Both the position numbers and the translations under genes were made by a program. This document shows, one piece after another, positions 2,629-23,003 of a stretch of 23,727 nt of DNA. The stretch comes from a virus: IMG/VR virus record IMGVR_UViG_3300020475_000500, positions 1 through 23,727 of that record, one strand, 5' to 3'. The stretch's first letter is position 1, and each line of letters begins with the position of its first letter. The notes under the pieces were generated by a model. It had not been told where the DNA came from and searched no databases. It saw nothing but the letters and a program-made list of their open reading frames with translations.

Positions 2629-2832
2629 ATGTTATTAACGATTATTAATGAAACAGGACATACTGAAATGTCCGTAACAATGACGGAAGTTATTGAACAA
2701 ATTAACGACCACCCGACACACTGGGTTTTAATTGATGGAGAACTTACTTCAAGGGAAACCATCACTGAGGTAAATTGGGATACTGTTGATTCAGTTGACC
2801 TTATACCAGCAATTGTTGGCGGAAGTCAATAA
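2629..2832 (+). CDS. Ubiquitin-like beta-grasp protein (ThiS/MoaD/Ubl-type) ending GG-SQ
   Basis: A 67-aa protein whose size and strand order match ThiS/MoaD/Ubl beta-grasp proteins. It has an N-terminal beta hairpin (MLLTIINETG, EMSVTMTE), a helix (EVIEQINDH) and a strand (WVLIDGELTS, the 'vaVNGe.v.r' position). It then reads DSVDLIPAIVGG, like the family's 'gD.Vei.PpvaGG' end. Gly64-Gly65 is followed by Ser-Gln, so the diglycine would have to be exposed by a peptidase before adenylation. The same segment encodes an E1-like enzyme (8525) and a JAMM peptidase (9515), which fits. GGAG lies about 10 bases upstream. Homology is read by eye. A sulfur-carrier role and a protein-modifier role are both possible. 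Confidence 0.62.
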   Translation: MLLTIINETGHTEMSVTMTEVIEQINDHPTHWVLIDGELTSRETITEVNWDTVDSVDLIPAIVGGSQ

Positions 2833-2844
2833 TTATATTAGATG

Positions 2845-2889
2845 AGGCAGGGGGTATAACCCTCTTTATCCCCTGTCTCTCAAAGAGGG
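2845..2889. promoter_or_regulatory. Interlocking hairpins (possible pseudoknot) over the 2896 ribosome binding site
   Basis: Between the Ubl stop and the 2896 start, two inverted repeats interleave. AGGCAGGGG (2845-2853) pairs with CCCCTGTCT (2870-2878), 9 pairs including one G-U. CCCTCTTT (2860-2867) pairs perfectly with AAAGAGGG (2882-2889). The left arm of the second lies in the loop of the first, and the right arm of the first lies in the loop of the second. The two could therefore form an H-type pseudoknot or alternative hairpins. The last arm contains the GAGGG Shine-Dalgarno of the 2896 gene, so folding should hide it. Only base pairing is seen; regulation is inferred. Confidence 0.5.
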
Positions 2890-2895
2890 ATTATT

Positions 2896-3294
2896 ATGAT
2901 AGAGGACAATATCAATTTTATAAACGAACAGACCTTTCCACAAATTATGAAAATATTTGGTTGGGAAGTTAAACCTAATTATCAGGTGTATCAAGGTCTT
3001 GCTATTATCAGGGCTGACTTTTATCCTATCGGACATGTTCTAGGATTTAGTAGCAAGGCAACAATTATATGTGATGGTGAATCCATCATAGAATTAAATG
3101 GAACTAAGTATCATGATTTTGATGAAATAGTTCAAGAAATAGGCTTAACAAATGCCATTGAATCTTTTCCTACATGGAAAATTACTGTAGAAAAGCAATG
3201 GGCTATTTTAAAGCATAACAATGATGGGAAAAAATGGGTAGGGGCATTTACCAATTTAGCAGAAATGCCATATAGAAAAACAATAAGGTGTTAA
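2896..3294 (+). CDS. 132-aa hypothetical protein upstream of RNR
   Basis: Preceded by AAAGAGGG, 6-7 bases from the ATG and inside the second hairpin arm described at 2845-2889. The product is mixed alpha/beta (FPQIMKIFGWEV, GLAIIRADFYPIGHV, ATIICDGESIIELNG) with a conserved-looking W-rich end. No family is recognised. It ends just before the ribonucleotide reductase start (AAGGTG overlaps its last codons), so the two genes are probably translationally coupled. Confidence 0.65.
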   Translation: MIEDNINFINEQTFPQIMKIFGWEVKPNYQVYQGLAIIRADFYPIGHVLGFSSKATIICDGESIIELNGTKYHDFDEIVQEIGLTNAIESFPTWKITVEKQWAILKHNNDGKKWVGAFTNLAEMPYRKTIRC

Positions 3295-3296
3295 CA

Positions 3297-5183
3297 ATGG
3301 AATTAGCAAGTAAAATATTAAGCGACATAACAGTATATATGAAATATTCAAAGTGGATAGAAGCAGAACAGAGAAAAGAAACATGGGATGAAGTAGTAAA
3401 TAGAAACATGAATATGCATCTAAAGAAACTTCAAGAATTAGGTTTCGATGAATCAACAGAACAGTATAATAAAGTAGTTGATGTTTATGATAACTTTGTT
3501 AGACCATTCAAGGTTTTACCATCTATGAGGTCAATGCAATATGCAGGTAAACCAATAGAAGTATCCCCTAACAGCATTTACAACTGTGCATATATGCCAG
3601 TTGATTCTGTTGAATGTTTTCACGAAGCAATGTTTTTATTAATGAATGGGACAGGTTTAGGATATTCAGTGCAAAGACACCATGTTAGAAGTTTACCAGA
3701 GATTAGACAACCAAATAGTGATAGAACAAGAAAAATATTAGTTCAGGATTCTATAGTAGGATGGGCAGAAGCAGTTAAAGAATTGTTTAGGTCATATACA
3801 GGTGAATTAACTCAAAGACCTAGATTTATTTATGATGATATTAGACCTAAAGGAACAAGGTTAAAGACAAGAGGTGGTAAAGCACCAGGCCCTGCTCCAT
3901 TAAGACTATGTATAGTTAAAATAGAAAGTATACTAAGACAAAAGGAAAAAGGTTCTAAACTAACAACCTTAGAATGTCACGATATAATGTGTCATTTAGC
4001 AGATGCAGTAACAGCAGGTGGAAACCGAAGGGCTGCTCTAATATCTTTATTTAGTGCTGATGATGATTATATGTTAAATTGTAAGGCAGGAAAGGGATGG
4101 ATGCAAACAGATGCACAAAGATTCCGAGCAAATAATTCGGCTGTTATTTTGAGGCATCGGGTTGATAAGAAATTTTTTGACGGAATTTGGAACAGAATTA
4201 AGACAAGTGGCTCAGGAGAACCAGGAATTTATTTAACAAACGATAAAGATTGGGGAACAAATCCTTGTTGTGAGATAGGGTTGCGCCCATATCAGTTCTG
4301 TAATTTGACAGAAATTAATTCTTCCACTATAGAAAATCAAGAAGATTTAGATGCGAGAGTAGAAGCAGCAGTAATTTTAGGTACTTTACAGGCTTCGTAT
4401 ACAGATTTCCATTATTTAAGAGATATTTGGAGAGAAACGACAGAAAAAGATGCTTTATTAGGTGTATCTTTAACAGGGCTTGCTTCAAATCGTGTATATA
4501 ATTTAGATTTAACAGGAACAGTTTACCATGCAAAACAAACTAATCAAGAATGGGCAACTCACTTAGGTATTAATCCTGCAGCAAGATTAAGTTGTGTTAA
4601 ACCAAGTGGAACTGCATCAATGGTATGCGGGTCTTCATCTGGTATTCACGCTTGGTTTGACAGGTATTATATTAGAAGGATTAGAGTTGGTAAAGATGAG
4701 GCAATTTGTTCTTATCTAACAATGAACCATCCTGAATTGATTGTTGATGATGAACATAATCCAGATGGTAGGATTATTGAGATACCTCAAAAAGCACCAA
4801 AGGGTGGACTAACTAAGAGAGATGAAGATACCTTTATGTTCTTAGAAAGAGTAAAGAATACTACATTAAGATGGGTAAAACCTGGACATACTAATGGGCA
4901 AAACACCCATAATGTTTCTGCTACTGTTTTCATTGAAAGAGACCAATGGGATGAAGTAGGCGAATGGATGTGGTTAAACAGATATTTCTATAATGGATTA
5001 TCATGTTTCCCTAATGATGAAAGTGTGTATATACAAGCACCATTTGAGTCTTGTAGTAAACAAAGATATGAAGAAATGATGAAAGAATTGACTTTGGTTG
5101 ATTTAACGCAGATTGTAGAATTTGATGATGATAGTAATTTTGGACAAGAACCTGCGTGTGCTGGTGGTGTCTGTGAAATTTAA
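3297..5183 (+). CDS. nrdJ: Adenosylcobalamin-dependent (class II) ribonucleotide reductase
   Basis: Reduces ribonucleotides to deoxyribonucleotides using a B12-generated thiyl radical, supplying dNTPs for viral replication. The 628-aa product has YNCAY (Cys97, first redox cysteine) and NPCCEIGL (Cys324, radical cysteine, with Asn322 and Glu326). It also has FCNLTEIN (Cys335, second redox cysteine), GGNRRAALISLF, and VKPSGTASMV followed by SSGIHAWF. A C-terminal CAGGVC swinging pair (Cys621/Cys626) completes the set. The SSGIHAxW and YYIRRIRV stretch resembles the monomeric RTPR branch (Lactobacillus type), though this protein is about 100 residues shorter. The ATG at 3297 is chosen because AAGGTG lies 6 bases upstream; a GTG at 3288 is in frame. 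No radical-generating subunit is needed or seen. Confidence 0.93.
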   Translation: MELASKILSDITVYMKYSKWIEAEQRKETWDEVVNRNMNMHLKKLQELGFDESTEQYNKVVDVYDNFVRPFKVLPSMRSMQYAGKPIEVSPNSIYNCAYMPVDSVECFHEAMFLLMNGTGLGYSVQRHHVRSLPEIRQPNSDRTRKILVQDSIVGWAEAVKELFRSYTGELTQRPRFIYDDIRPKGTRLKTRGGKAPGPAPLRLCIVKIESILRQKEKGSKLTTLECHDIMCHLADAVTAGGNRRAALISLFSADDDYMLNCKAGKGWMQTDAQRFRANNSAVILRHRVDKKFFDGIWNRIKTSGSGEPGIYLTNDKDWGTNPCCEIGLRPYQFCNLTEINSSTIENQEDLDARVEAAVILGTLQASYTDFHYLRDIWRETTEKDALLGVSLTGLASNRVYNLDLTGTVYHAKQTNQEWATHLGINPAARLSCVKPSGTASMVCGSSSGIHAWFDRYYIRRIRVGKDEAICSYLTMNHPELIVDDEHNPDGRIIEIPQKAPKGGLTKRDEDTFMFLERVKNTTLRWVKPGHTNGQNTHNVSATVFIERDQWDEVGEWMWLNRYFYNGLSCFPNDESVYIQAPFESCSKQRYEEMMKELTLVDLTQIVEFDDDSNFGQEPACAGGVCEI

Positions 5184-5508
5184 AATAGAAGAATTAGAAG
5201 ACTATCAATTAGTTGCTTCTATCTTAATTGATAGAATTGATGAAGTAGAGCATACATTACCTGCTCTACTCACAAGTGTAACAGAAAAGTATGCCTATCG
5301 GGATGCGGCTGAATTAAAGGTCGCATTCCGTAAGGCTACTGAAGATGCTCTTAGTGGTAGCCTTTTTTTGCATGTCTATTATAGATATGTCTATAAGGTA
5401 TTTAGGGCAGTAGGCTTTGTAGAAAGCGGAACAGAATTTAACTCATTGCTAACTGAGTATAAAGAATTAGCAGAATATATAAAGGAGAATAAAAATGAGA
5501 TTTATTGA
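5173..5508 (+). CDS. 111-aa hypothetical helical protein overlapping RNR end
   Basis: The frame runs upstream to 5122 inside the RNR gene, but the likely start is GTG at 5173, just after GGTGGT and 10 bases before the RNR stop. The product is acidic and helical (YQLVASILIDRIDEV, LHVYYRYVYKVFRAVGF, LLTEYKELAEYI). No family is recognised. Close coupling to RNR suggests co-expression, not necessarily a shared function. Confidence 0.6.
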   Translation: MKFKIEELEDYQLVASILIDRIDEVEHTLPALLTSVTEKYAYRDAAELKVAFRKATEDALSGSLFLHVYYRYVYKVFRAVGFVESGTEFNSLLTEYKELAEYIKENKNEIY

Positions 5509-5947
5509 TTGTACCTGTGGATGCAGGGATTTTGACTTAACAGCGAAAGGAAATATGGTATGTAAAAACTGTGGAAAGGATTTTAATCCTTTTGAATCAG
5601 AACATGTCAAAGTAGTAAAGGATGATGGTTTTCATTTCTTTTGGGCTATAATTACGCCACACTTTTCTGAGAGACTTGAAAGAAGAGTTCCAGAAAAAAC
5701 AACAGAAGATGTAATATTAGCGGCTAGAGAAATAGAAAAGGTTTCAAAGAAAAAGAAATATTATTTTACCCATTGGGCCGGACACAAATTATTTTGGATT
5801 TACAAATATAATTATAAGAAGAAAAGATTAGAGATGGAATTCATTACTGTTGCCCCGATTGGAAGCAAGGATAAACTCATGCTACCAAATGGATATATAG
5901 TTAAGAATACTCAATATGTGAAGGTGGATTTTGATGGAAAAGAGTAA
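5495..5947 (+). CDS. Zinc-ribbon protein with HxxxRxxxR segment
   Basis: The 150-aa product starts with a zinc ribbon (CTCGC near residues 6-10 and CKNC at 23-26). A basic, aromatic domain follows. The segment TPHFSERLERRVPEKT (about 49-64) has the His/Arg spacing seen in DUF4258-like/RelE-related phage proteins of the form H-x3-R-x3-R, so a small nucleic-acid-binding or nuclease domain is possible but unproven. The gene overlaps the 5173 gene by 14 bases, with AAAGGAG upstream. Nothing else identifies its role. Confidence 0.6.
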   Translation: MRFIDCTCGCRDFDLTAKGNMVCKNCGKDFNPFESEHVKVVKDDGFHFFWAIITPHFSERLERRVPEKTTEDVILAAREIEKVSKKKKYYFTHWAGHKLFWIYKYNYKKKRLEMEFITVAPIGSKDKLMLPNGYIVKNTQYVKVDFDGKE

Positions 5948-6242
5948 GGAAAAAGTATTTTATGATAAGTATCATAAGAAACAATTGGTTAAAGCAATTA
6001 AGCAATTTAAAAAGGACAAGGATATGAGAAGAACAAGAGGAGACGGCTTCAAGAGATTATATGGTAATGGATTGAAAAGACCAGTTATTGAAGATGTTCA
6101 TTATTCATGGAAACAGTTTGAAAAATTACCTAAAGATGTAGTTATAGTTTATGGATTTATGATAGGCTGTAACCAAGAATATATAGAAAAATTAGACAAC
6201 GAAAATTTCTTTGTACCTAAGAGATTATTAAAAGAGGAATGA
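5934..6242 (+). CDS. 102-aa basic hypothetical protein
   Basis: The start at 5934 is chosen because AAGGTGG is about 6 bases upstream; the frame also contains a TTG at 5931. The N-terminal half is very Lys/Arg rich (YHKKQLVKAIKQFKKDKDMRR), and the C-terminal half has a hydrophobic strand (VVIVYGFMIG). No family is recognised. A nucleic-acid-binding role is a guess from charge alone. Confidence 0.6.
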   Translation: MEKSKEKVFYDKYHKKQLVKAIKQFKKDKDMRRTRGDGFKRLYGNGLKRPVIEDVHYSWKQFEKLPKDVVIVYGFMIGCNQEYIEKLDNENFFVPKRLLKEE

Positions 6243-6244
6243 TT

Positions 6245-7624
6245 ATGTTTGAGAATTATGGAAATACTTATGTGGTAAATTTTCAAATCTTTGCACCCGA
6301 TGATTCAAAAAAATCTTATTCCACAACCTTTGTTCTTTATTCTTCTTATGAGATAAGCAATTTGCATAAGCACCCTAAAGACAAACCAATAGAATCTTCT
6401 GTTGTTTATTCAGTAGATAAAATACCTTATCCCAGACGACCAATGCATAATACTCTTAGGATAACCACACATGCAGAAAAGCATTTGAAAGGAGACCCTG
6501 TAATTAATGTAATGAAAAGAGAATTAAGGTCTTTTTTTAAATGGGGAGGGAGAGATTATTATGCTGCACCCAAAGAATGGAAAATAGCATTAACTACTTT
6601 AGATAATAAGATGGCATTGATTATGGAAAAAGGTGCAACTCATTATACATTTATGGGTCAAAGAACAAAGAAAGAAAACTTACTTCAAGCATTGTCTAGG
6701 TTTATTTATAGGTCATGTTTTGAAAAAGACCCTGTAAAACTATTAGAATATATTATGAAGTTGATTTCTTTACCAGAAAATGTTGCCTATGTGTTAGAAA
6801 ACAGAACACCATATCATTATTTTGATGTAAACAAAAGAGAAAAAATAGAATGCAGATTAAACACTCAGTTAATTTCTAGCACAGAGGCTGCATTAGAAAT
6901 ATCAGATGGTATCTGGGCAAGTATTGATATTAATGATTTAGATATTATGGTTAATTATTACTATCACAACCAAAGTCGTTCAAAGAGATGGAGATTAGTT
7001 TCACCTGTTAAACTATGGACTATGTTAATAGGAACAGCACCTTCTGATTCTCAAGCAAAATTAATGATGGAATTCCTTAAGCAAAACAGGACACAAGATA
7101 TCGTTGAATCAAGAGCAGTTGAATTAATGAATAGTTTAGAAATCAAATATCCAAACAGAATAAAGATTCTTGAAAAAGAAAGAAACACTCATAATTATAA
7201 GATTATGTTAGTTAGGGGTAAAATTGCTGATTGGGTAATCATTAATCACAGTCATAGACATACTGATACTCAAAAAGTAAAAGTATATGCCTTTGTTCAT
7301 GAATCTCTACATGAGATGGAACAAAAATTAATTGAAGATAATAATAGAAGAACAAGAAGTTCTGGAGGAATTGCAATGAAAAGTTTAGGTGGTTTCTTAA
7401 GAGGCCCTATTTGTATTGATAACATGCATAGGAATTCTAGTTTAGGAGACCAATATGCTTCAAGAGCATTAGCATTGTTAAATGATAACATAACTGTTAC
7501 TTTAGTATATACTATAGATAAATACTTACCAAAATGGGTATTAGAAGGAGAAAAAACATCAAAAATATTAATTGATTGGGATGCTATTGATAGTGAAAAT
7601 GAAGATTGGGAGAAGATATTATGA
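6245..7624 (+). CDS. Large unrecognised protein (459 aa)
   Basis: One of the largest genes in the window, with no family I can name. ATGs at 6239 and 6245 are in frame; 6245 has the better spacing from AGAGGA. Blocks that look conserved rather than random are NVAYVLENRTPYHYF (about 185-199), a DGIWASIDINDL block, AKLMMEFLKQNRTQDIVESR, and GPICIDN followed by SLGDQYASRALALLND near the C-terminus. There is no P-loop, metal-binding triad, signal peptide or membrane helix. It directly precedes TFB, overlapping it by 4 bases. Confidence 0.75.
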   Translation: MFENYGNTYVVNFQIFAPDDSKKSYSTTFVLYSSYEISNLHKHPKDKPIESSVVYSVDKIPYPRRPMHNTLRITTHAEKHLKGDPVINVMKRELRSFFKWGGRDYYAAPKEWKIALTTLDNKMALIMEKGATHYTFMGQRTKKENLLQALSRFIYRSCFEKDPVKLLEYIMKLISLPENVAYVLENRTPYHYFDVNKREKIECRLNTQLISSTEAALEISDGIWASIDINDLDIMVNYYYHNQSRSKRWRLVSPVKLWTMLIGTAPSDSQAKLMMEFLKQNRTQDIVESRAVELMNSLEIKYPNRIKILEKERNTHNYKIMLVRGKIADWVIINHSHRHTDTQKVKVYAFVHESLHEMEQKLIEDNNRRTRSSGGIAMKSLGGFLRGPICIDNMHRNSSLGDQYASRALALLNDNITVTLVYTIDKYLPKWVLEGEKTSKILIDWDAIDSENEDWEKIL

Positions 7625-8523
7625 AATGTAAAGAATGTAATACATCAACAAGTTTCTCTTATGATGAAGTGTTGGGTGAAGAATATTGTACCCAATGTGG
7701 ATTCATTAGAGTAACAAAGATATTTGAAGATAGACCTGCTGTTAGTGAAATAATAAAATCTAATTTACCTACTAATGCAGGATTAGGAGGAATGATTGCT
7801 CATTATGAAGCAAAGAATAAAAGTTCTAATAGACTTGCTAGAACAGATAAGATGTTTGGTAAAAGAAATAATAAAGATAAAGCATTGAGAACAGGACTTA
7901 GAGAATGTTATATGGTTTTATCTTATCATTCTAATGGTGTTGATTTAGATGATGTTAGAAGATTAGTAAAACATTACTATACTAGATTGTATAGGGCTTC
8001 CGAAATGAGAGGTAATTCATTGATTGAAAGAGCATGTGCAATTGTGTTTCTAACATTAAGAGAATTAGAAATACCTGTTACAGCAAATGAAATAGGAGAA
8101 AGACATTATGTTAAGCCTTCTATTGTTTCTAGGAATGCTAGAAAGTATGCTAGAGTATTAAAGAAATCGCATAAATTACATGCCTTTAATACTCAATCAT
8201 GGGTTGATAAAACAACAGCCAAACTAGGAACAGACTCTGATTTTTATTATGATTTAAGAAGACTCTCTGAGTTTACAGAAAGAGCATTAGAGAATGCTCA
8301 AATAGGAATGACAAGAACCTATTTTGCTGGAACTGTATGGTTGTTAAATTTAATGAGAAGAAAGAATGAAGTAAAACAAGGAGATGTATGTGACGCTTGT
8401 TCTATATCGAGAACATCGTTAAGAAATGCATATAAAAGATTATTACCAATAGTCAATTGTGAATTTGAAGATTTAAAAAATATGACTGTTGATGATTTTA
8501 TATCAGGAATAAGGATAAGATAA
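7621..8523 (+). CDS. tfb: Transcription initiation factor TFB
   Basis: Archaeal TFIIB homologue that bridges TBP-bound promoter DNA and RNA polymerase; a viral copy would direct the host polymerase to viral promoters. The 300-aa product has the N-terminal zinc ribbon (Cys3, Cys6, Cys23, Cys26). A B-reader/linker-like region follows (LGGMIAHYEAK), then two cyclin-type repeats (about 85-185 and 205-295). The first holds IERACAIVFLTLRELEIPVTAN, and the second ends with a recognition-helix pattern (GDVCDACSISRTSLRNAYKRLL). The start at 7621 is chosen because GGAG is about 8 bases upstream; a TTG at 7606 is in frame. No TBP gene is in the window, so host TBP is presumably used. Confidence 0.9.
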   Translation: MKCKECNTSTSFSYDEVLGEEYCTQCGFIRVTKIFEDRPAVSEIIKSNLPTNAGLGGMIAHYEAKNKSSNRLARTDKMFGKRNNKDKALRTGLRECYMVLSYHSNGVDLDDVRRLVKHYYTRLYRASEMRGNSLIERACAIVFLTLRELEIPVTANEIGERHYVKPSIVSRNARKYARVLKKSHKLHAFNTQSWVDKTTAKLGTDSDFYYDLRRLSEFTERALENAQIGMTRTYFAGTVWLLNLMRRKNEVKQGDVCDACSISRTSLRNAYKRLLPIVNCEFEDLKNMTVDDFISGIRIR

Positions 8524-8524
8524 A

Positions 8525-9163
8525 ATGAAAATTAATTATAACAAAAATGAAAAAAGAAAAATACTAGTAATCGGTGTAGGAGGAATAGGTAGTTATCTTG
8601 TTCCTCTTCTCCACAAATCATGGTGCTATGATATACATATAGCAGATAATGATGTAGTGGAAGTAAAAAATTTACTTTATCAAAACTATAAACAAAGAGA
8701 TATAGATAAGTTAAAGATTAAAGGAATGAAACAATTACTACAATCAACGAATCATGATTATGATGTAGGCTTGACTGAATCTCAAATGAGCAAATATCAA
8801 GTGCTTACTGCAAAACAATTAGAAGGTTATGATTTAGTAATATGTTGTGCAGATAATCTATCAGTTAGAAAACTGTTATACTCACAAGGTTTTGGTGATA
8901 ATGCTAAGATTAAGTGGTTAGATTTACGAGCGCAAGGTAGAAATGGAGCGTTAATTAGTTATTTAACAGATGAAAAATTTAGTGAGACATTTTTAAATGG
9001 GCCAGAAGGTTCATTTTCCTGTCAAGGTGATGGGTTTAATACTAGCCTTAATACAAAGGGCTTACATTTTACTCATGTTGCTATTGCAGGATATGGGGCG
9101 CAATGGATTCACCGTTGGTTTAATGGTGATGATGTTGGTGATAAATTTATAATAAATATATAG
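8525..9163 (+). CDS. E1/ThiF/MoeB-like adenylating enzyme
   Basis: A Rossmann-type ubiquitin-activating-like enzyme expected to adenylate the C-terminal glycine of a Ubl with ATP. Visible motifs in the 212-aa product are GVGGIGS (17-23, nucleotide loop), the Asp41/Asp43 pair in IADNDVVEV, and NLLYQ (49-53, the 'NLnRQ' position). DIDKLKIKGM (59-68) carries the conserved Lys region, and CCADNLSVRKLL (108-118) matches 'ctDn...R'. The usual Arg of NLxRQ is Tyr here. Cys166 (SFSCQGDG) lies where thioester-forming or metal-binding cysteines are found in relatives. It starts right after TFB. Two genes downstream is a JAMM peptidase, and a Ubl candidate is at 2629. Confidence 0.88.
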   Translation: MKINYNKNEKRKILVIGVGGIGSYLVPLLHKSWCYDIHIADNDVVEVKNLLYQNYKQRDIDKLKIKGMKQLLQSTNHDYDVGLTESQMSKYQVLTAKQLEGYDLVICCADNLSVRKLLYSQGFGDNAKIKWLDLRAQGRNGALISYLTDEKFSETFLNGPEGSFSCQGDGFNTSLNTKGLHFTHVAIAGYGAQWIHRWFNGDDVGDKFIINI

Positions 9164-9173
9164 GTGAGAAACT

Positions 9174-9527
9174 ATGAGTTGGACAGAAGAACAAGAAGAA
9201 ATAATGATGTATGCCGTAAAAAACGGCTTAAGCGCAGAAGAAACATCTGCTTCATTAATTGAAGCAGGTTATGAAAACAGAACAGTACGTTCTGTTAAAG
9301 CAAAGTGGCGACATATGTATAAAGCGCCATTTGGCGAATTCAATGACTATGAAGTAGTTGTTGAAGAACTATCAGAAGAACTGAATGAAAAGATTGAAGA
9401 ACTAACTGATAGAGTTGAAGTGGAAGAAAAGAAAAGGAAATCCTTTAGGGTACAAACAATATTGTTTGTATTGGTTGGTATTGGTATAGCAGCCTATGGA
9501 TTGGAGACAGGAATATGGACTATTTAA
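9174..9527 (+). CDS. C-terminally membrane-anchored HTH/coiled-coil protein
   Basis: A 117-aa protein with three parts. An N-terminal Myb/SANT-like helical domain covers residues 2-50 (WTEEQEEIMMYAVKNGLS, then RTVRSVKAKW). An acidic coiled coil covers about 58-88 (VVEELSEELNEKIEEL). One transmembrane helix lies at about 94-113 (VQTILFVLVGIGIAAYGL). The HTH side should face the cytoplasm. Its place between the E1-like and JAMM genes (GGTGAG start; its end overlaps the JAMM gene by 13 bases) suggests it could be a membrane platform or substrate for that pathway. No known family is recognised for the whole. Confidence 0.7.
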   Translation: MSWTEEQEEIMMYAVKNGLSAEETSASLIEAGYENRTVRSVKAKWRHMYKAPFGEFNDYEVVVEELSEELNEKIEELTDRVEVEEKKRKSFRVQTILFVLVGIGIAAYGLETGIWTI

Positions 9528-9988
9528 TAGATGCAAGAGATGAAGGCTTTGAAGAAAAAAATCCTGGTTGGAAAGAAGATATAAGTCAATCATATCGGAA
9601 TGATAATGTATTGCATTTTTACGACACAATTTGGAGAGTAAGTCTGCAAGCCTTTGATAAGCCCCGTGAAGTCCAAGTGGTGATAGATTCTAACGACAAC
9701 CTTTTTATTAGTGTGGGGAATGGAGGACTTGTAACCTTTGGAGGCCAAGATGAACAAACTATTGGGATGAAGTTTCCTGTTAAAGAATGGATACACACTC
9801 ATCCCTTTGGTGCTGCTTATTTTAGTGGAACTGATTTGAATACAATATTTATGTATCAAAGACATATGATTAAAGCAACTGTTTTAGGTAACAATGAAAG
9901 GGCAGTATATTACATAGGCATTGAAGAAGACAATGGCGATAGAGTAGAAAGAATAACTGTAGAAAGACAAAACGAGGAAGAATTATGA
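9515..9988 (+). CDS. JAMM/MPN (JAB) zinc metallopeptidase
   Basis: The 157-aa product has a complete JAMM metal site: His94-Thr-His96-Pro, then Ser104 and Asp107 (HTHPFGAAYFSGTD). This matches the H-x-H-P-x6-S-x2-D signature of Rpn11/AMSH-like deubiquitinases and prokaryotic JAB peptidases. The catalytic Glu should be upstream, with Glu52 and Glu91 as candidates. The family cleaves after Gly-Gly of ubiquitin-like proteins, or processes their precursors. The viral Ubl at 2629 ends in GG-SQ, giving a plausible local substrate. There is no NlpC/P60 domain, unlike the tail-assembly K proteins of tailed phages. The gene overlaps its neighbours on both sides, indicating one operon. Confidence 0.9.
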   Translation: MDYLIDARDEGFEEKNPGWKEDISQSYRNDNVLHFYDTIWRVSLQAFDKPREVQVVIDSNDNLFISVGNGGLVTFGGQDEQTIGMKFPVKEWIHTHPFGAAYFSGTDLNTIFMYQRHMIKATVLGNNERAVYYIGIEEDNGDRVERITVERQNEEEL

Positions 9989-19285: not shown

Positions 19286-20037
19286 ATATAACAATAAGCG
19301 TATCTGATTTTAAGGATGCGGTTGAGGCAATTTGGCTTAAAGGCAAATATAAGTCCTCAACCACATCTAAGATAGATGTGGTAAGCAATTCTTGCTTATG
19401 CATATGCAGAAATAATAGAATAGAATTCTACAATGGAAATGATAAATCTGCATTAAATGTAAATAAAGTAGTTGACTATAATAAAGAGGAACAAATGTTT
19501 ATCTTTGATATTGAAAAGGTAATGAAATACCTAAAGGTATTCAAAGGTGAAATAAACCTCAAAGTTACAGACTCAAATATTATGCTAAAAAACAATTCTT
19601 CTAATGCTAGAATTGCTAAGTTAGTGGAGCATAATAATTATGGATTGATTTCTAGGATAATGAATCTTTCTTTAGAAACCCCTGTTGTTTTTGGTAAAAC
19701 AGAATTACCAACTGAATTATTATTTCAGGGTGATGATTTAGCAGAAGCGATTAAATTTTGTAATAACGTAGGAACTGCTACTTTCAAACTTAACTATGAA
19801 GCGGGAAGCAATGTTGCTAGTCTTTCTTCTCACACTATACATAATACTGAGTATGCTCAAAAAGACATACCATTAATTAATGTAAGTGATGAAAGCATGA
19901 CTGTTGAATTTTCAGCGCCATTGGATAAGTTTTGTGTTGATGAACCAATGAGAATCTTTGGTGGAGATGATAAACCAATATTGTTATGTGGTTCAGATAG
20001 AAAATTGGTAATAGCGCCATATATAAATGATAGGTGA
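19282..20037 (+). CDS. pcn: PCNA sliding clamp
   Basis: Homotrimeric ring that tethers polymerase and other factors to DNA. The 251-aa length is typical for archaeal PCNA. The C-terminal signature is clear: MTVEFSAPLDKFC, then DKPILLCGSDRKLVIAPYI, corresponding to 'f....L..f..' and '..d.Pv.l.......l.y.iAP.i'. The N-terminal domain has two-fold-like strands (IEFYNGNDKSALNVN, FIFDIEKVMKYLKVFKG). The gene overlaps the Sak4-like gene by 4 bases. Two window proteins, at 13990 and 22086, carry terminal PIP boxes that would dock here. Confidence 0.87.
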   Translation: MNITISVSDFKDAVEAIWLKGKYKSSTTSKIDVVSNSCLCICRNNRIEFYNGNDKSALNVNKVVDYNKEEQMFIFDIEKVMKYLKVFKGEINLKVTDSNIMLKNNSSNARIAKLVEHNNYGLISRIMNLSLETPVVFGKTELPTELLFQGDDLAEAIKFCNNVGTATFKLNYEAGSNVASLSSHTIHNTEYAQKDIPLINVSDESMTVEFSAPLDKFCVDEPMRIFGGDDKPILLCGSDRKLVIAPYINDR

Positions 20038-20041
20038 TGTA

Positions 20042-21712
20042 ATGATTATAAGTGTATCAAATAATAAAAATATGATAGGAATAAGATATAGAAATGAGGA
20101 GAATGAAAGGGTGGAGTATACTACTACCTTTGATGATTTCAAGCCTTATTTTTATATATTGGATACTGCACAAGAGATTAGAGAAGCAGTAATTAAAGAT
20201 AAATACACTAAGTTTAGAGCAACTGTTACTCTTGATTATGAGGAAACGGATGAAGTAAATTTATTTGGTAAGAAGTTAAAGAAAGTAACATGGTCTCCTT
20301 CAAGGCCAGATTTTGTAAAGAATCTTAGAGGGCTATGGGTTCATACCTATGAAGCCGATGTTGCTTACCATTATAGATATACCATAGATAATTTTACTGA
20401 ATTCCCAAATTATAATCTTAGAAAGTTTTATTGGGATATGGAATGGGTATCTGACGACCATCAGTATGAGGGTGCTATTACTTGTATTGTAGTATATGAC
20501 AATTATGAAAAGAAGTATACTACTTATACATGGTTTCCCAGAAATATAAAGTTTAAAAAGAAACCAAACCATTTAGTGTTTGATTCTGAAAGAAGAATGT
20601 TATCTGCATTTGTAGATGATATTATAGATAAAGACCCTGATATGTTGATTTCTTGGTTCGGTTCTAAGTTCGATTTACCAAAGTTAATTGAAAGGTTGAT
20701 GCATTGTAATATAGACCCAAGAGCCATATCTCCATACCAAGATGTAAAAGGAGTTTACTTTGGTTCTGGAGAAATTAAACTATCAAGAGCAGTTAAAAAC
20801 TATTCACCTGTTGAACAACCTATTAGGGGAAGACTAACGCTAAATCTTGACTTAGCATTTGAAAGACAATGGAATGATGCTCAGAAAGGAACATTACCTT
20901 CTCTTGCATTAGACTATATTTCTGAGACAATTTTAGGAGATAAAAAATTAGTTAGTGAAAAGTTCCCAGATAAAAATGAGTTTTTTTCTAGGGGATGGTT
21001 AGAAGATACTGATAATTATTTGCTTTATGCAGAAAAAGATGTGGAATTAATTGTAAGAATTGATGAGAAAAACTTTACATCAGAAGCAGTTTTATCTTTA
21101 CAGCGTTTGCTTATTGCTCCTTTTGATGCTTGTTTTTATGCGAGTAACATGGGTGGTATATATTTTATGCGTAATGCAGATTGGAAAGCGCCAACAGGTT
21201 CTAAAGATGTTAAAGTAGATTATGAAGGTGCTATGATTTATGACCCTTCATCAGAAGCAACAAACGGATTACATTTAGGTGTTGCTGCATTTGATTATGC
21301 GGGTTTGTATCCTTCAATGATGATTGCAAGAAATATATCTTGGGAAACTAAATCTAATGTTCCTACTGAGTTTGGTGTTAATATTCTTACACCAAGAGAT
21401 TTTAGTGAAGAAACTATTAAAGAAATGAGATACTTCAAAACTGATAAGTTAGGTCTTTTACCTAGAGCAGTTTTAGAATTAAAAGAACTTAGAAATGAAT
21501 ATAAGAAAAAGATGAAAGAGGCCGCCACAAAAGAAGAGTATGCAAAATGGGATACTAATCAAATGGCTGTAAAAAGATTAATGGCGTCTTTCTACGGTGT
21601 GGTTGGATATCAAGGATTTGCTTGGGCTGATACAGACCTGGCGGCTAGTATAACTGCTAGTGCTAGAGAAGCAATTAGAGAAGCAGCATTTATAGTGAGA
21701 GGGTTAGAATGA
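20042..21712 (+). CDS. polB: DNA polymerase family B, N-terminal fragment (exonuclease, motifs A and B)
   Basis: Larger half of a split replicative polymerase, 556 aa. Exo I is FYWDMEW (Asp132, Glu134), Exo II is SWFGSKFDLPKL (Asp211) and Exo III is YAEKD (Tyr329, Asp333). Proofreading should therefore be intact, although Exo II lacks the usual Asn. Motif A is FDYAGLYPSMM (Asp418). Motif B is KRLMASFYGVVGYQGF, with Lys511 and Tyr518 and Ser in place of the usual Asn. The chain stops after ITASAREAIREAAF...RGLE, just before where motif C should follow; motif C is in the 22086 gene. The ATG at 20042 is chosen for AGGTGAT upstream (an earlier in-frame ATG is at 20027). Confidence 0.95.
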   Translation: MIISVSNNKNMIGIRYRNEENERVEYTTTFDDFKPYFYILDTAQEIREAVIKDKYTKFRATVTLDYEETDEVNLFGKKLKKVTWSPSRPDFVKNLRGLWVHTYEADVAYHYRYTIDNFTEFPNYNLRKFYWDMEWVSDDHQYEGAITCIVVYDNYEKKYTTYTWFPRNIKFKKKPNHLVFDSERRMLSAFVDDIIDKDPDMLISWFGSKFDLPKLIERLMHCNIDPRAISPYQDVKGVYFGSGEIKLSRAVKNYSPVEQPIRGRLTLNLDLAFERQWNDAQKGTLPSLALDYISETILGDKKLVSEKFPDKNEFFSRGWLEDTDNYLLYAEKDVELIVRIDEKNFTSEAVLSLQRLLIAPFDACFYASNMGGIYFMRNADWKAPTGSKDVKVDYEGAMIYDPSSEATNGLHLGVAAFDYAGLYPSMMIARNISWETKSNVPTEFGVNILTPRDFSEETIKEMRYFKTDKLGLLPRAVLELKELRNEYKKKMKEAATKEEYAKWDTNQMAVKRLMASFYGVVGYQGFAWADTDLAASITASAREAIREAAFIVRGLE

Positions 21713-21955: not shown

Positions 21956-22089
21956 ATACATGTATGATTTGTAATCAGATAATATCTGCAAAAAACACTA
22001 AATCATATGATTATACTCGTAGGAATTATTGTGGGATTTGTTATCTCAAAAAGAAAAAACAAGATAGAAAGGAGAAAGGATTAAAATGA
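21952..22089 (+). CDS. 45-aa zinc-knuckle protein inside split polB (paralogue of 15092)
   Basis: The 45-aa product has C-x2-C (4-7) and C-x2-C (27-30) and a Lys-rich tail. Its first 17 residues match the 15092 protein (MN-x-C-x2-CN-x-IISA), so the two form a paralogous pair. The start overlaps the previous stop; the stop overlaps the start of the polB C-fragment (ATGA), and its AAAGGAGAAAGG tail is that gene's Shine-Dalgarno. Expression is therefore coupled to the polymerase. Role unknown. Confidence 0.65.
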   Translation: MNTCMICNQIISAKNTKSYDYTRRNYCGICYLKKKKQDRKEKGLK

Positions 22090-23003
22090 AAGTAGTTTAT
22101 GGGCATACAGATTCAATTTACGTTCAAATTCCAATGAATAGAACAGGAGAAGTTCTTGATTTGTTGAACACCAAAGTTAGAGAGAAGTTTCCTAATGTTA
22201 TGGGATTAAAAGAACACCCTGTAGTATTAGAGTTTGAAAAATATTATGAATCTTTAGGTGTAGGTATAACAAAGAATAGAAACGCAGGTCTTATTTCTTG
22301 GAAAGATGGTGAGTATTTAGATGAACCAAAATTTGTTATGACAGGATTTTCTGCTAAAAGAGTAGCAATTACTAAATTAGCAAAAACAGTTCAATTAGAA
22401 GTTTTAAACAGATGGGTAGGACAACAATCGGAAAAAGAGATTACCGACTATTTAAGAAAAGAATATAATAGGGTTTTGAAAGGTAATATGCAATTAGATG
22501 AAATTGTAAATAGAAGTAGATTTAGACCAGAAAGATTCCAATATAAATGTAAGAGTTGTGAAAAAGCATATAATGTTGATTCTATATTATCTGAAAGAAA
22601 TAAATTTAAGAAACTACAAACCGAACCTTTTTGTTCTAAGTGTGGTAATGGATTTGAGTTTATTACTATAGCAGGTAAAAGACCATCAATAGGTTCAGGT
22701 GTTGAAGGAGTTTTATGGTATAACCAATTGTCTTCTATACCAATTAATGATTCATATATTTATATGAAGGTGTCAGATGACTTACAAAGACCTACATATG
22801 TTAATCCTGTAACTGGTATTAGAAAAAGACCTTCCTATGTATCTGCTCCAACATTTGAAGAACTCGCAACTGAGAATCCTGATTATAAACATTATGCAGA
22901 TTCTATAGTAAAGAAGGCAGAACCTATATACAGAGCAATGGGTTGGGATTTAAAGAAGATTACGATTGATGAAAATCAATCAACATTAGATGAGTGGTGG
23001 TAA
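22086..23003 (+). CDS. polB: DNA polymerase family B, C-terminal fragment (motif C, thumb, PIP box)
   Basis: Smaller half of the split polymerase (305 aa). It begins MKVVYGHTDSIYV, i.e. motif C with the second catalytic Asp (Asp9) kept but the first replaced by His (usual YGDTDS). The downstream block VMTGFSAKRVAITKLAKT matches the palm/thumb 'kG.e.vRrd...k' segment. A zinc ribbon not usual in PolB thumbs is inserted (Cys155, Cys158, Cys183, Cys186). The chain ends in QSTLDEWW (298-305), a textbook PIP box, as in archaeal PolB and RFC-L tails. Placed end to end with the 20042 product, no conserved residues are missing, so the two chains should assemble into one enzyme. Confidence 0.93.
   Translation: MKVVYGHTDSIYVQIPMNRTGEVLDLLNTKVREKFPNVMGLKEHPVVLEFEKYYESLGVGITKNRNAGLISWKDGEYLDEPKFVMTGFSAKRVAITKLAKTVQLEVLNRWVGQQSEKEITDYLRKEYNRVLKGNMQLDEIVNRSRFRPERFQYKCKSCEKAYNVDSILSERNKFKKLQTEPFCSKCGNGFEFITIAGKRPSIGSGVEGVLWYNQLSSIPINDSYIYMKVSDDLQRPTYVNPVTGIRKRPSYVSAPTFEELATENPDYKHYADSIVKKAEPIYRAMGWDLKKITIDENQSTLDEWW

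Follow-up and report, generated by a model that had tools for sequence, protein, structure and literature searches.

Described ubiquitin-like systems and the viral locus

Viruses usually hijack the ubiquitin-type systems of their hosts. In bacteria, genes for a ubiquitin-like modifier (Ubl), an activating enzyme (E1), a conjugating enzyme (E2) and a JAB peptidase are known from single loci, types 6a-6e of Iyer et al. 2006 (PMC1779556), and a cellular Ub-E1-E2-RING-JAMM cluster is known from Caldiarchaeum subterraneum (PMC5654768). The conjugation of SAMP modifiers in archaea proceeds without an E2 (PMC11354881), and a virus-encoded Ubl together with a JAB peptidase has been described in lambda-type tail modules (PMC1779556). 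Here we analyse a set of such genes in the virus record IMGVR_UViG_3300020475_000500, of which positions 1-23,727 make up the window, i.e., the whole 23,727-nucleotide stretch of DNA whose numbering is used for all coordinates. An earlier note on this DNA had placed genes for a Ubl, an E1-like enzyme and a JAMM peptidase in one stretch, and all three open reading frames (ORFs) are indeed present on the plus strand. Together with a fourth gene, they form the cassette considered here:

2629..2832, + strand: Ubl, a predicted beta-grasp modifier of 67 aa with the C-terminus AIVGG-SQ and zero lysine
6239..7624, + strand: candidate E2-like conjugating protein, 461 aa, with a UBC-fold-like C-terminal domain (about residues 286-446) containing Cys392 (GPICIDN); N-terminal 285 residues without assignment
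8525..9163, + strand: minimal E1/ThiF-like adenylating enzyme, 212 aa, PF00899, with an invariant Cys166 (SFSCQ)
9515..9988, + strand: JAMM/MPN+ metallopeptidase, 157 aa, with the motif E52 ... H94-T-H96-P-x6-S104-x2-D107

The Ubl-E1-JAMM set in these viruses is real, conserved and functionally coherent. From sequence and predicted structures, we consider it rather probable that the cassette encodes a reversible Ubl protein-conjugation cascade of the replication phase. A fuller proposal is offered more tentatively, as something that may well be true but that we would not yet bet on: in the abundant marine magroviruses, the replication programme would always include a complete virus-encoded cascade with its own modifier, E1, E2 and deconjugase, and the E2 would represent a new, highly diverged UBC-fold family. 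With single-locus Ubl/E1/E2/JAB sets already known, what is new here is the occurrence of a probable Ubl cascade in viruses, among their replication genes and with an E2-like partner that has diverged.

The bacterial operons, with which Bil and CBASS Cap2/Cap3 belong, resemble the viral cassette in combining a Ubl, an E1-like protein, an E2-like protein and a JAB peptidase at one locus, in having an E1 without a rhodanese domain, and in having a JAB with a deubiquitinase motif. In contrast to these operons, the viral genes are separate and interleaved with genes for a TFB-like transcription factor and a ribonucleotide reductase (RNR), and they lie in the replication half of an archaeal tailed virus rather than in a sporadic defence island. 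In the viral E2-like protein, the N-terminal region is large, and both an HPN motif and a conserved His after the Cys are missing. The archaeal SAMP/UbaA/HvJAMM1 system shares a GG-bearing beta-grasp Ubl, a single E1, a JAMM deconjugase and the archaeal setting, but it has no E2 and its UbaA doubles in sulfur transfer, whereas in the viruses an E2-like partner is always present and the E1 is strongly reduced. The Caldiarchaeum cluster is likewise an archaeal gene cluster for a cascade with a JAMM deconjugase; however, its Ub and E2 are near the eukaryotic ones and it includes a RING E3, whereas the E2-like domain of the virus has no detectable E2 sequence similarity. Finally, TapI-TapK of lambda and T1 pair a viral beta-grasp protein with a JAB peptidase but differ in their tail-assembly context, in having no E1, and in the NlpC/P60 domain on TapK.

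A large group of archaeal viruses thus appears to bring a whole Ubl system and never to go without one. If true, protein tagging would be a routine tool of prokaryotic viruses, biochemistry would gain a natural minimal cascade, and a diverged E2-like family would be added to the prehistory of ubiquitin. It would also account for four conserved genes of highly abundant marine archaeal viruses, three of which are nameless or only generically annotated (ThiF, JAB). In the literature on magrovirus or Poseidoniales viruses with ubiquitin or ThiF, we found no such system described, with the founding magrovirus papers, which may hold ThiF/JAB annotations, lying outside this coverage.

Conservation and predicted structure of the four proteins

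Relatives were collected from IMG/VR by separate scans with the Ubl, with the JAMM and E1 families, and with DNA polymerase B (PolB) as an unrelated marker. In the pooled set of 120 non-identical loci spanning the whole block, the Ubl gene is followed in turn by those for the 461-aa protein, E1 and JAMM, all on one strand, in 120/120, and this fixed order and strand make chance untenable. Among 49 records from the Ubl scan, E1 is present in 46 and JAMM in the same 46, while the other three end at a contig edge. The JAMM- and E1-family scans gave 155 further loci, 102 of which have all four genes. E1 is seen without a Ubl at 45 loci, where no more than 4.6 kb separate it from the edge of the contig; where both genes are present, they are 2.6-7.8 kb apart. 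The co-occurrence of the three genes across related viral contigs, raised in the earlier note, is therefore borne out, as every locus with E1 and JAMM and no Ubl is cut off by a contig end. The PolB scan agrees: E1 was found in 8 of its 22 records, which by their contig ranges are the ones that extend sufficiently upstream of PolB; in four of the 8 the sequence continues upstream for long enough to include the Ubl, and all four have it. Each of the four genes has a dN/dS ratio of about 0.2, as calculated on ORFs taken from stop to stop and thus including some upstream non-coding DNA. Median identities in the Ubl loci are 69% for the Ubl, the highest of the window proteins compared, 62% for RNR, 51% for E1 and 50% for JAMM; PolB relatives are about 60-65% identical.

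Structures were predicted with AlphaFold2 (AF2), and fold neighbours were sought with Foldseek and VIA. The AF2 model of the Ubl, folded with 43 relatives, has a mean pLDDT of 82 and a beta-beta-alpha-beta-beta-beta topology (strands 2-7 and 10-15, helix 18-27, strands 31-35, 38-40 and 55-60) followed by a disordered GG tail. Its top 50 Foldseek neighbours are of the ubiquitin/NEDD8/SUMO/ISG15 type, and its best VIA matches are MoaD (Z 5.5), TtuB (5.1) and SAMP2 (5.1), within a range of 4.6-5.5 that is modest, as one would expect of a protein of 67 residues. With almost every structural neighbour being a beta-grasp protein, the beta-grasp fold that had been proposed for it is predicted with good confidence. 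No family match to the Ubl was found in Pfam, NCBIfam or PADLOC, its profile gave no meaningful match against PDB sequences, and no relative was found among the INPHARED phages, a set without the magrovirus records ON649702 and OR863078. A scan of cellular genomes retrieved only two contigs (NZTP01000030.1 and NZTP01000027.1, our L118 and L119), both in one metagenome-assembled genome of the bacterium Altibacter, and these are probably misbinned viral contigs.

The C-terminal GG is present in 117/117 distinct Ubls with 0-8 residues after it, and the 52 contigs retrieved by the Ubl scan (median identity 69%) all encode a Ubl ending in GG plus 0-2 residues. Two loci, L240 and L249, encode Ubls with long acidic tails, GG-SCTIDDDDY and GG-CEDFDDGF, as opposed to the 0-2 residues seen elsewhere, and these tails likely need trimming by the JAMM peptidase. 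Lysine is rare in the family: 35 of 103 distinct Ubls are lysine-free and 63 of the lysine-bearing ones have a lysine at position 2, in a window whose proteome is 8% lysine.

The presence of an E1/ThiF-like enzyme at 8525, also claimed from sequence before, is clear from its match to PF00899 (E=1.1e-20, 74.3 bits against a cut-off of 28.1), and the profile of its family matches MoeB, UBA5, Cap2 and Uba1 at E 1e-10 to 1e-8. Residues G17/G19/G20/G22, D41, D43, N49, Q53, K64, D110 and C166 are invariant. The nucleotide loop GxGGxG is kept in 143/143 distinct sequences, as is C166, the SCQ cysteine, which is the single invariant Cys of the C-terminal half and the likely thioester site. Of the MoeB adenylation residues N70, R73, K86 and D130, three have invariant counterparts (N49, K64 and D110), and in at least 90% Tyr52 stands where MoeB has R73; apart from this Arg, the residues that align with the adenylation sites of MoeB and UBA5 are kept. 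Scored against the full-length equivalog models of NCBIfam, the enzyme stays far below the cut-offs of ThiF (61/275 bits), MoeB (37/377) and UbaA (44/450), so that by this measure it is not ThiF or MoeB proper, although ThiF and MoeB are its nearest NCBIfam models.

These nearest models, and the structural closeness of the Ubl to MoaD, TtuB and SAMP2, bear on a different explanation, in which the cassette is a sulfur-carrier pathway. Here E1 would adenylate the Ubl, host sulfur would turn it into a thiocarboxylate used for thiolating tRNA, a cofactor or an amino acid, the JAMM peptidase would act like QbsD or Mec+ in tail trimming or product release, and the 461-aa protein would be the acceptor enzyme. 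Such a pathway would also fit weak matches to ThiS by 7 of 43 Ubls (best 0.0014) and the many encoded Ubl tails of the form GG-C or GG-xC, which bring to mind the termini of QbsE and CysO-Cys. However, neither rhodanese (PF00581) nor cysteine desulfurase (PF00266) was found in any of 20 relatives of 82-103 kb, in searches whose controls were positive, though supply by the host is possible; RNR is the only metabolic neighbour, and conjugation agrees better with two features described below, an E2-like domain in the 461-aa protein and a JAMM profile akin to that of deubiquitinases. We therefore regard sulfur transfer as unlikely, though it is the main rival to conjugation.

The JAMM peptidase likewise has the complete HxHP...SxxD site noted earlier, with the full motif reading E-HTHP-x6-SxxD. 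Its ligand and catalytic residues E52, H94, H96, S104 and D107 are invariant in 40/40 relatives, and the motif is intact in 149 of 150 distinct JAMMs, the remaining one being a truncated ORF. The window protein alone matches PF14464 below the cut-off (E=0.004, 17.5 bits against 25), and 39 of the 40 relatives match Prok-JAB below E=1, with a best value of 2.2e-5. The family profile matches the deubiquitinases AMSH-LP (E=3.6e-5), AMSH, Sst2 and Rpn11-like proteins across WIHTHP..A..S..D. Six kinds of Ubl with a bare GG end, from several lineages, are still accompanied by an intact JAMM, which must therefore do more than mature the Ubl; from these sequences, deconjugation is a better guess for its main role than tail trimming. 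Proteins of the JAMM family also end in a conserved acidic run (EEE/DEE), at about 9976-9985 in the window, which overlaps the start of the next window gene.

Similarity to deubiquitinases could also mean counter-defence, with the viral JAMM stripping SAMP-type conjugates of the host and the Ubl/E1 pair competing with the host system, given that the archaeal host presumably has a Ubl system of its own. We find this very improbable, as a pure stripper needs no Ubl, E1 and E2-like partner of its own under purifying selection in every genome.

The earlier note saw no evident E2-like protein, which is probably a mistake, as the constant gene at 6239-7624 encodes a C-terminal domain that VIA places near the UBC fold. 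The AF2 model of the 461-aa protein has a pLDDT of 85, and for residues 286-446 most of the 50 VIA matches listed are E2 or E2-related (UBC/RWD) proteins at Z 3.1-5.2, among them FANCL (Z 5.2 over 86 residues), Ube2N~Ub (Z 4.4 over 115 residues, 4.1 A) and UbcH5A (Z 4.2 over 118 residues), as well as Ube2K, Rad6, UBE2S, Pex4, UFC1 and UBE2L6. The order of elements is that of an E2, i.e., a helix, four strands, the cysteine, and helices. Cys392 is kept in 142/142 distinct relatives (140 by strict motif and two by eye, TCIDN and YCIDD), and its motif GPICIDN resembles GSICLDI of the E2 UbcH5B. In the AF2 model, from which we infer the active-site position, a strand precedes Cys392 and a helix (402-414) starts 10 residues after it; the residues D394 (an Asp at +2), G403, D404, Q405 and R409 that follow are invariant. 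On this basis the domain quite probably has a UBC fold, and the assignment of the whole protein as an E2 is provisional.

If that assignment failed, the Ubl, E1 and JAMM might still suffice for SAMP-like conjugation without an E2, with the 461-aa protein as an unrelated adaptor or a dedicated substrate. The E2-free SAMP precedent, the closeness of SAMP2 to the Ubl fold and the modest structural scores behind the E2 assignment all fit this alternative. In contrast, the presence of the 461-aa protein in every spanning locus, and the invariance of its single Cys amid E2-like sequence, speak for a part in the pathway, and we consider the E2-independent version rather improbable.

The proposed cascade and the points against it

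Of the roles listed in the earlier note (tagging of host or virion proteins, counter-tagging and thiolation), we favour tagging. The parts, their motifs, and their constant co-occurrence and order come from sequence and structure prediction, and from these we infer the chemical steps, the action of the 461-aa protein as an E2, which proteins are modified and what the virus gains. In the proposed cascade, where a Ubl has residues after GG (0-8 in the family), the JAMM peptidase would trim them and so expose the GG. The minimal E1 would then adenylate the GG end and hold the Ubl as a thioester on Cys166, from which it would move to Cys392 in the C-terminal, E2-like domain; the N-terminal part of the 461-aa protein may choose the target. 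The Ubl would be joined to lysines in proteins of the virus or its host, presumably as a single tag, since a nearly lysine-free Ubl should be a poor chain former, and the JAMM peptidase would later take it off again. The virus might benefit if host proteins were redirected to the host proteasome, or if its own replication machinery were regulated.

Several results weigh against this proposal. For the E2-like protein, VIA Z values of 3-5 for an E2 fold are modest and too low to be relied on alone. Foldseek with the whole 461-aa model gave no significant PDB match, and its only matches in the viral library were three unnamed homologues; the profile of the C-terminal domain retrieved nothing from the PDB at E 10, and the protein belongs to no family in Pfam, NCBIfam or PADLOC. 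An hhalign comparison of the family with five eukaryotic E2s (sequences partly approximate, the first being UbcH5B) gave a probability of 3%; its P of 0.015, with the register right at helix 1 and controls at P 0.53 and 0.69, is suggestive at most. The relatives listed have no HPN motif before GPICIDN, a feature of canonical eukaryotic-type E2s, and as such the protein is called E2-like rather than E2; nor is any His after C392 invariant among the relatives, unlike in the E2-like proteins of Iyer type 6d. No RING-type E3 was identified, in a search that is void because its controls gave no signal. The E1 has the Tyr at the position of MoeB R73 and is without the usual zinc CxxC pairs, and two sulfur carriers, MoaD and TtuB, are among the proteins closest to the Ubl in structure. 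Finally, we dropped the scarcity of lysine in the Ubl as proof of conjugation: E. coli ThiS is lysine-free too, so this feature is not diagnostic and cannot separate conjugation from sulfur transfer.

Genomic setting and related genes in other phages

The window also encodes a split PolB, RFC, PCNA, a ligase, a TFB and a class II RNR, in agreement with what has been published on the genes and GC content of Magrovirales, archaeal tailed viruses of 90-110 kb (PMC10768690). By this published description, the virus is probably of the Magrovirales type. PolB is encoded by two ORFs, 20027-21712 and 22086-23003, which are separated by two small ORFs, an arrangement reported for Aoguangviridae (PolB-NTD/CTD). 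The relatives reach about 103 kb, and a terminase (TerL) was found in 18 of the 20 large ones, on the strand opposite to the cassette wherever both could be placed. This opposite strand matches the two opposed transcription units described for Magrovirales and puts the cassette in the replication half rather than with tail assembly. A virion or tail-assembly role like that of lambda TapI (Ubl) and TapK (JAB) would draw on the Ubl-JAB pairing of phage tail operons (PMC1779556). However, the cassette has an E1, which tail modules do not, no NlpC/P60 domain was found, and the neighbours of the cassette are TFB, RNR, ligase, RFC, PCNA and PolB. With the terminase on the other strand in the relatives compared, we disfavour such a role as extremely improbable.

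Two further genes lie within the block:

3288..5183, + strand: class II (adenosylcobalamin) ribonucleotide reductase, TIGR02505 E=8e-74, between the Ubl and E2-like genes
7606..8523, + strand: TFB-like transcription factor, PF08271 E=4.5e-4 and phrog_20431 E=3e-9, between the E2-like and E1 genes

The TFB gene occupies the same slot in 43 of 52 Ubl loci by tblastn; it is syntenic, and we give it no role in the cascade. An RNR lies between the Ubl and the E2-like gene in 94 of the 120 loci, 89 times of the RTPR type found in the window and five times of an NrdJ-type class II enzyme unrelated to it. The occurrence of two RNR types in one slot (compare 3288-5183 of the window, L022:10667-12859 and L030:5163-7325) reads, from the sequences, as non-orthologous replacement in place. 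The other 26 loci keep the cassette with no RNR in this slot, so RNR is not required, and we rejected a dedicated RNR-regulating role for the cassette; the RNR is plausibly an optional passenger or a substrate of it. A scan for sigma-70 style promoters gave matches no more numerous than in shuffles, the host being archaeal. A group II/thermosome-type chaperonin (PF00118) is encoded in 5 of the 20 large relatives and in one of them (G017, C1:63543-64994) lies about 1 kb past the JAMM gene.

Outside the magroviruses, a similar arrangement is that of Crassvirales phages such as crAss001, in which an E1 also lies directly beside a JAB and near a class II RNR. In the crAss001 genome MH675552 (L472:4274-6672), the JAB gp77 is directly upstream of the ThiF/E1 gp76, and the two are annotated as a metalloprotease and a thiamine biosynthesis protein. 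The crAss001 E1 is 29% identical to the window E1 over 139 aa, and the two JAMMs share an FFSGTD stretch. The differences are that crAss001 is a bacterial phage, that its E1 has a 160-aa N-terminal extension, that no separate GG-ending Ubl of the magrovirus family was recognised there, and that the neighbouring gp78 (444 aa) gave no match to the 461-aa family. Residues 28-40 of gp76, IIIQTAIVGGSTY, resemble the C-terminus of the magrovirus Ubl. No description of the crAss-like E1-JAB pair as a conjugation system was found, and judging from its sequences the pair is possibly a second phage Ubl pathway. In the Moraxella phages Mcat17 and Mcat22 (L473), an unannotated stretch near attR encodes another ThiF/E1 relative, whose match spans 89% of the window E1 at 28% identity.

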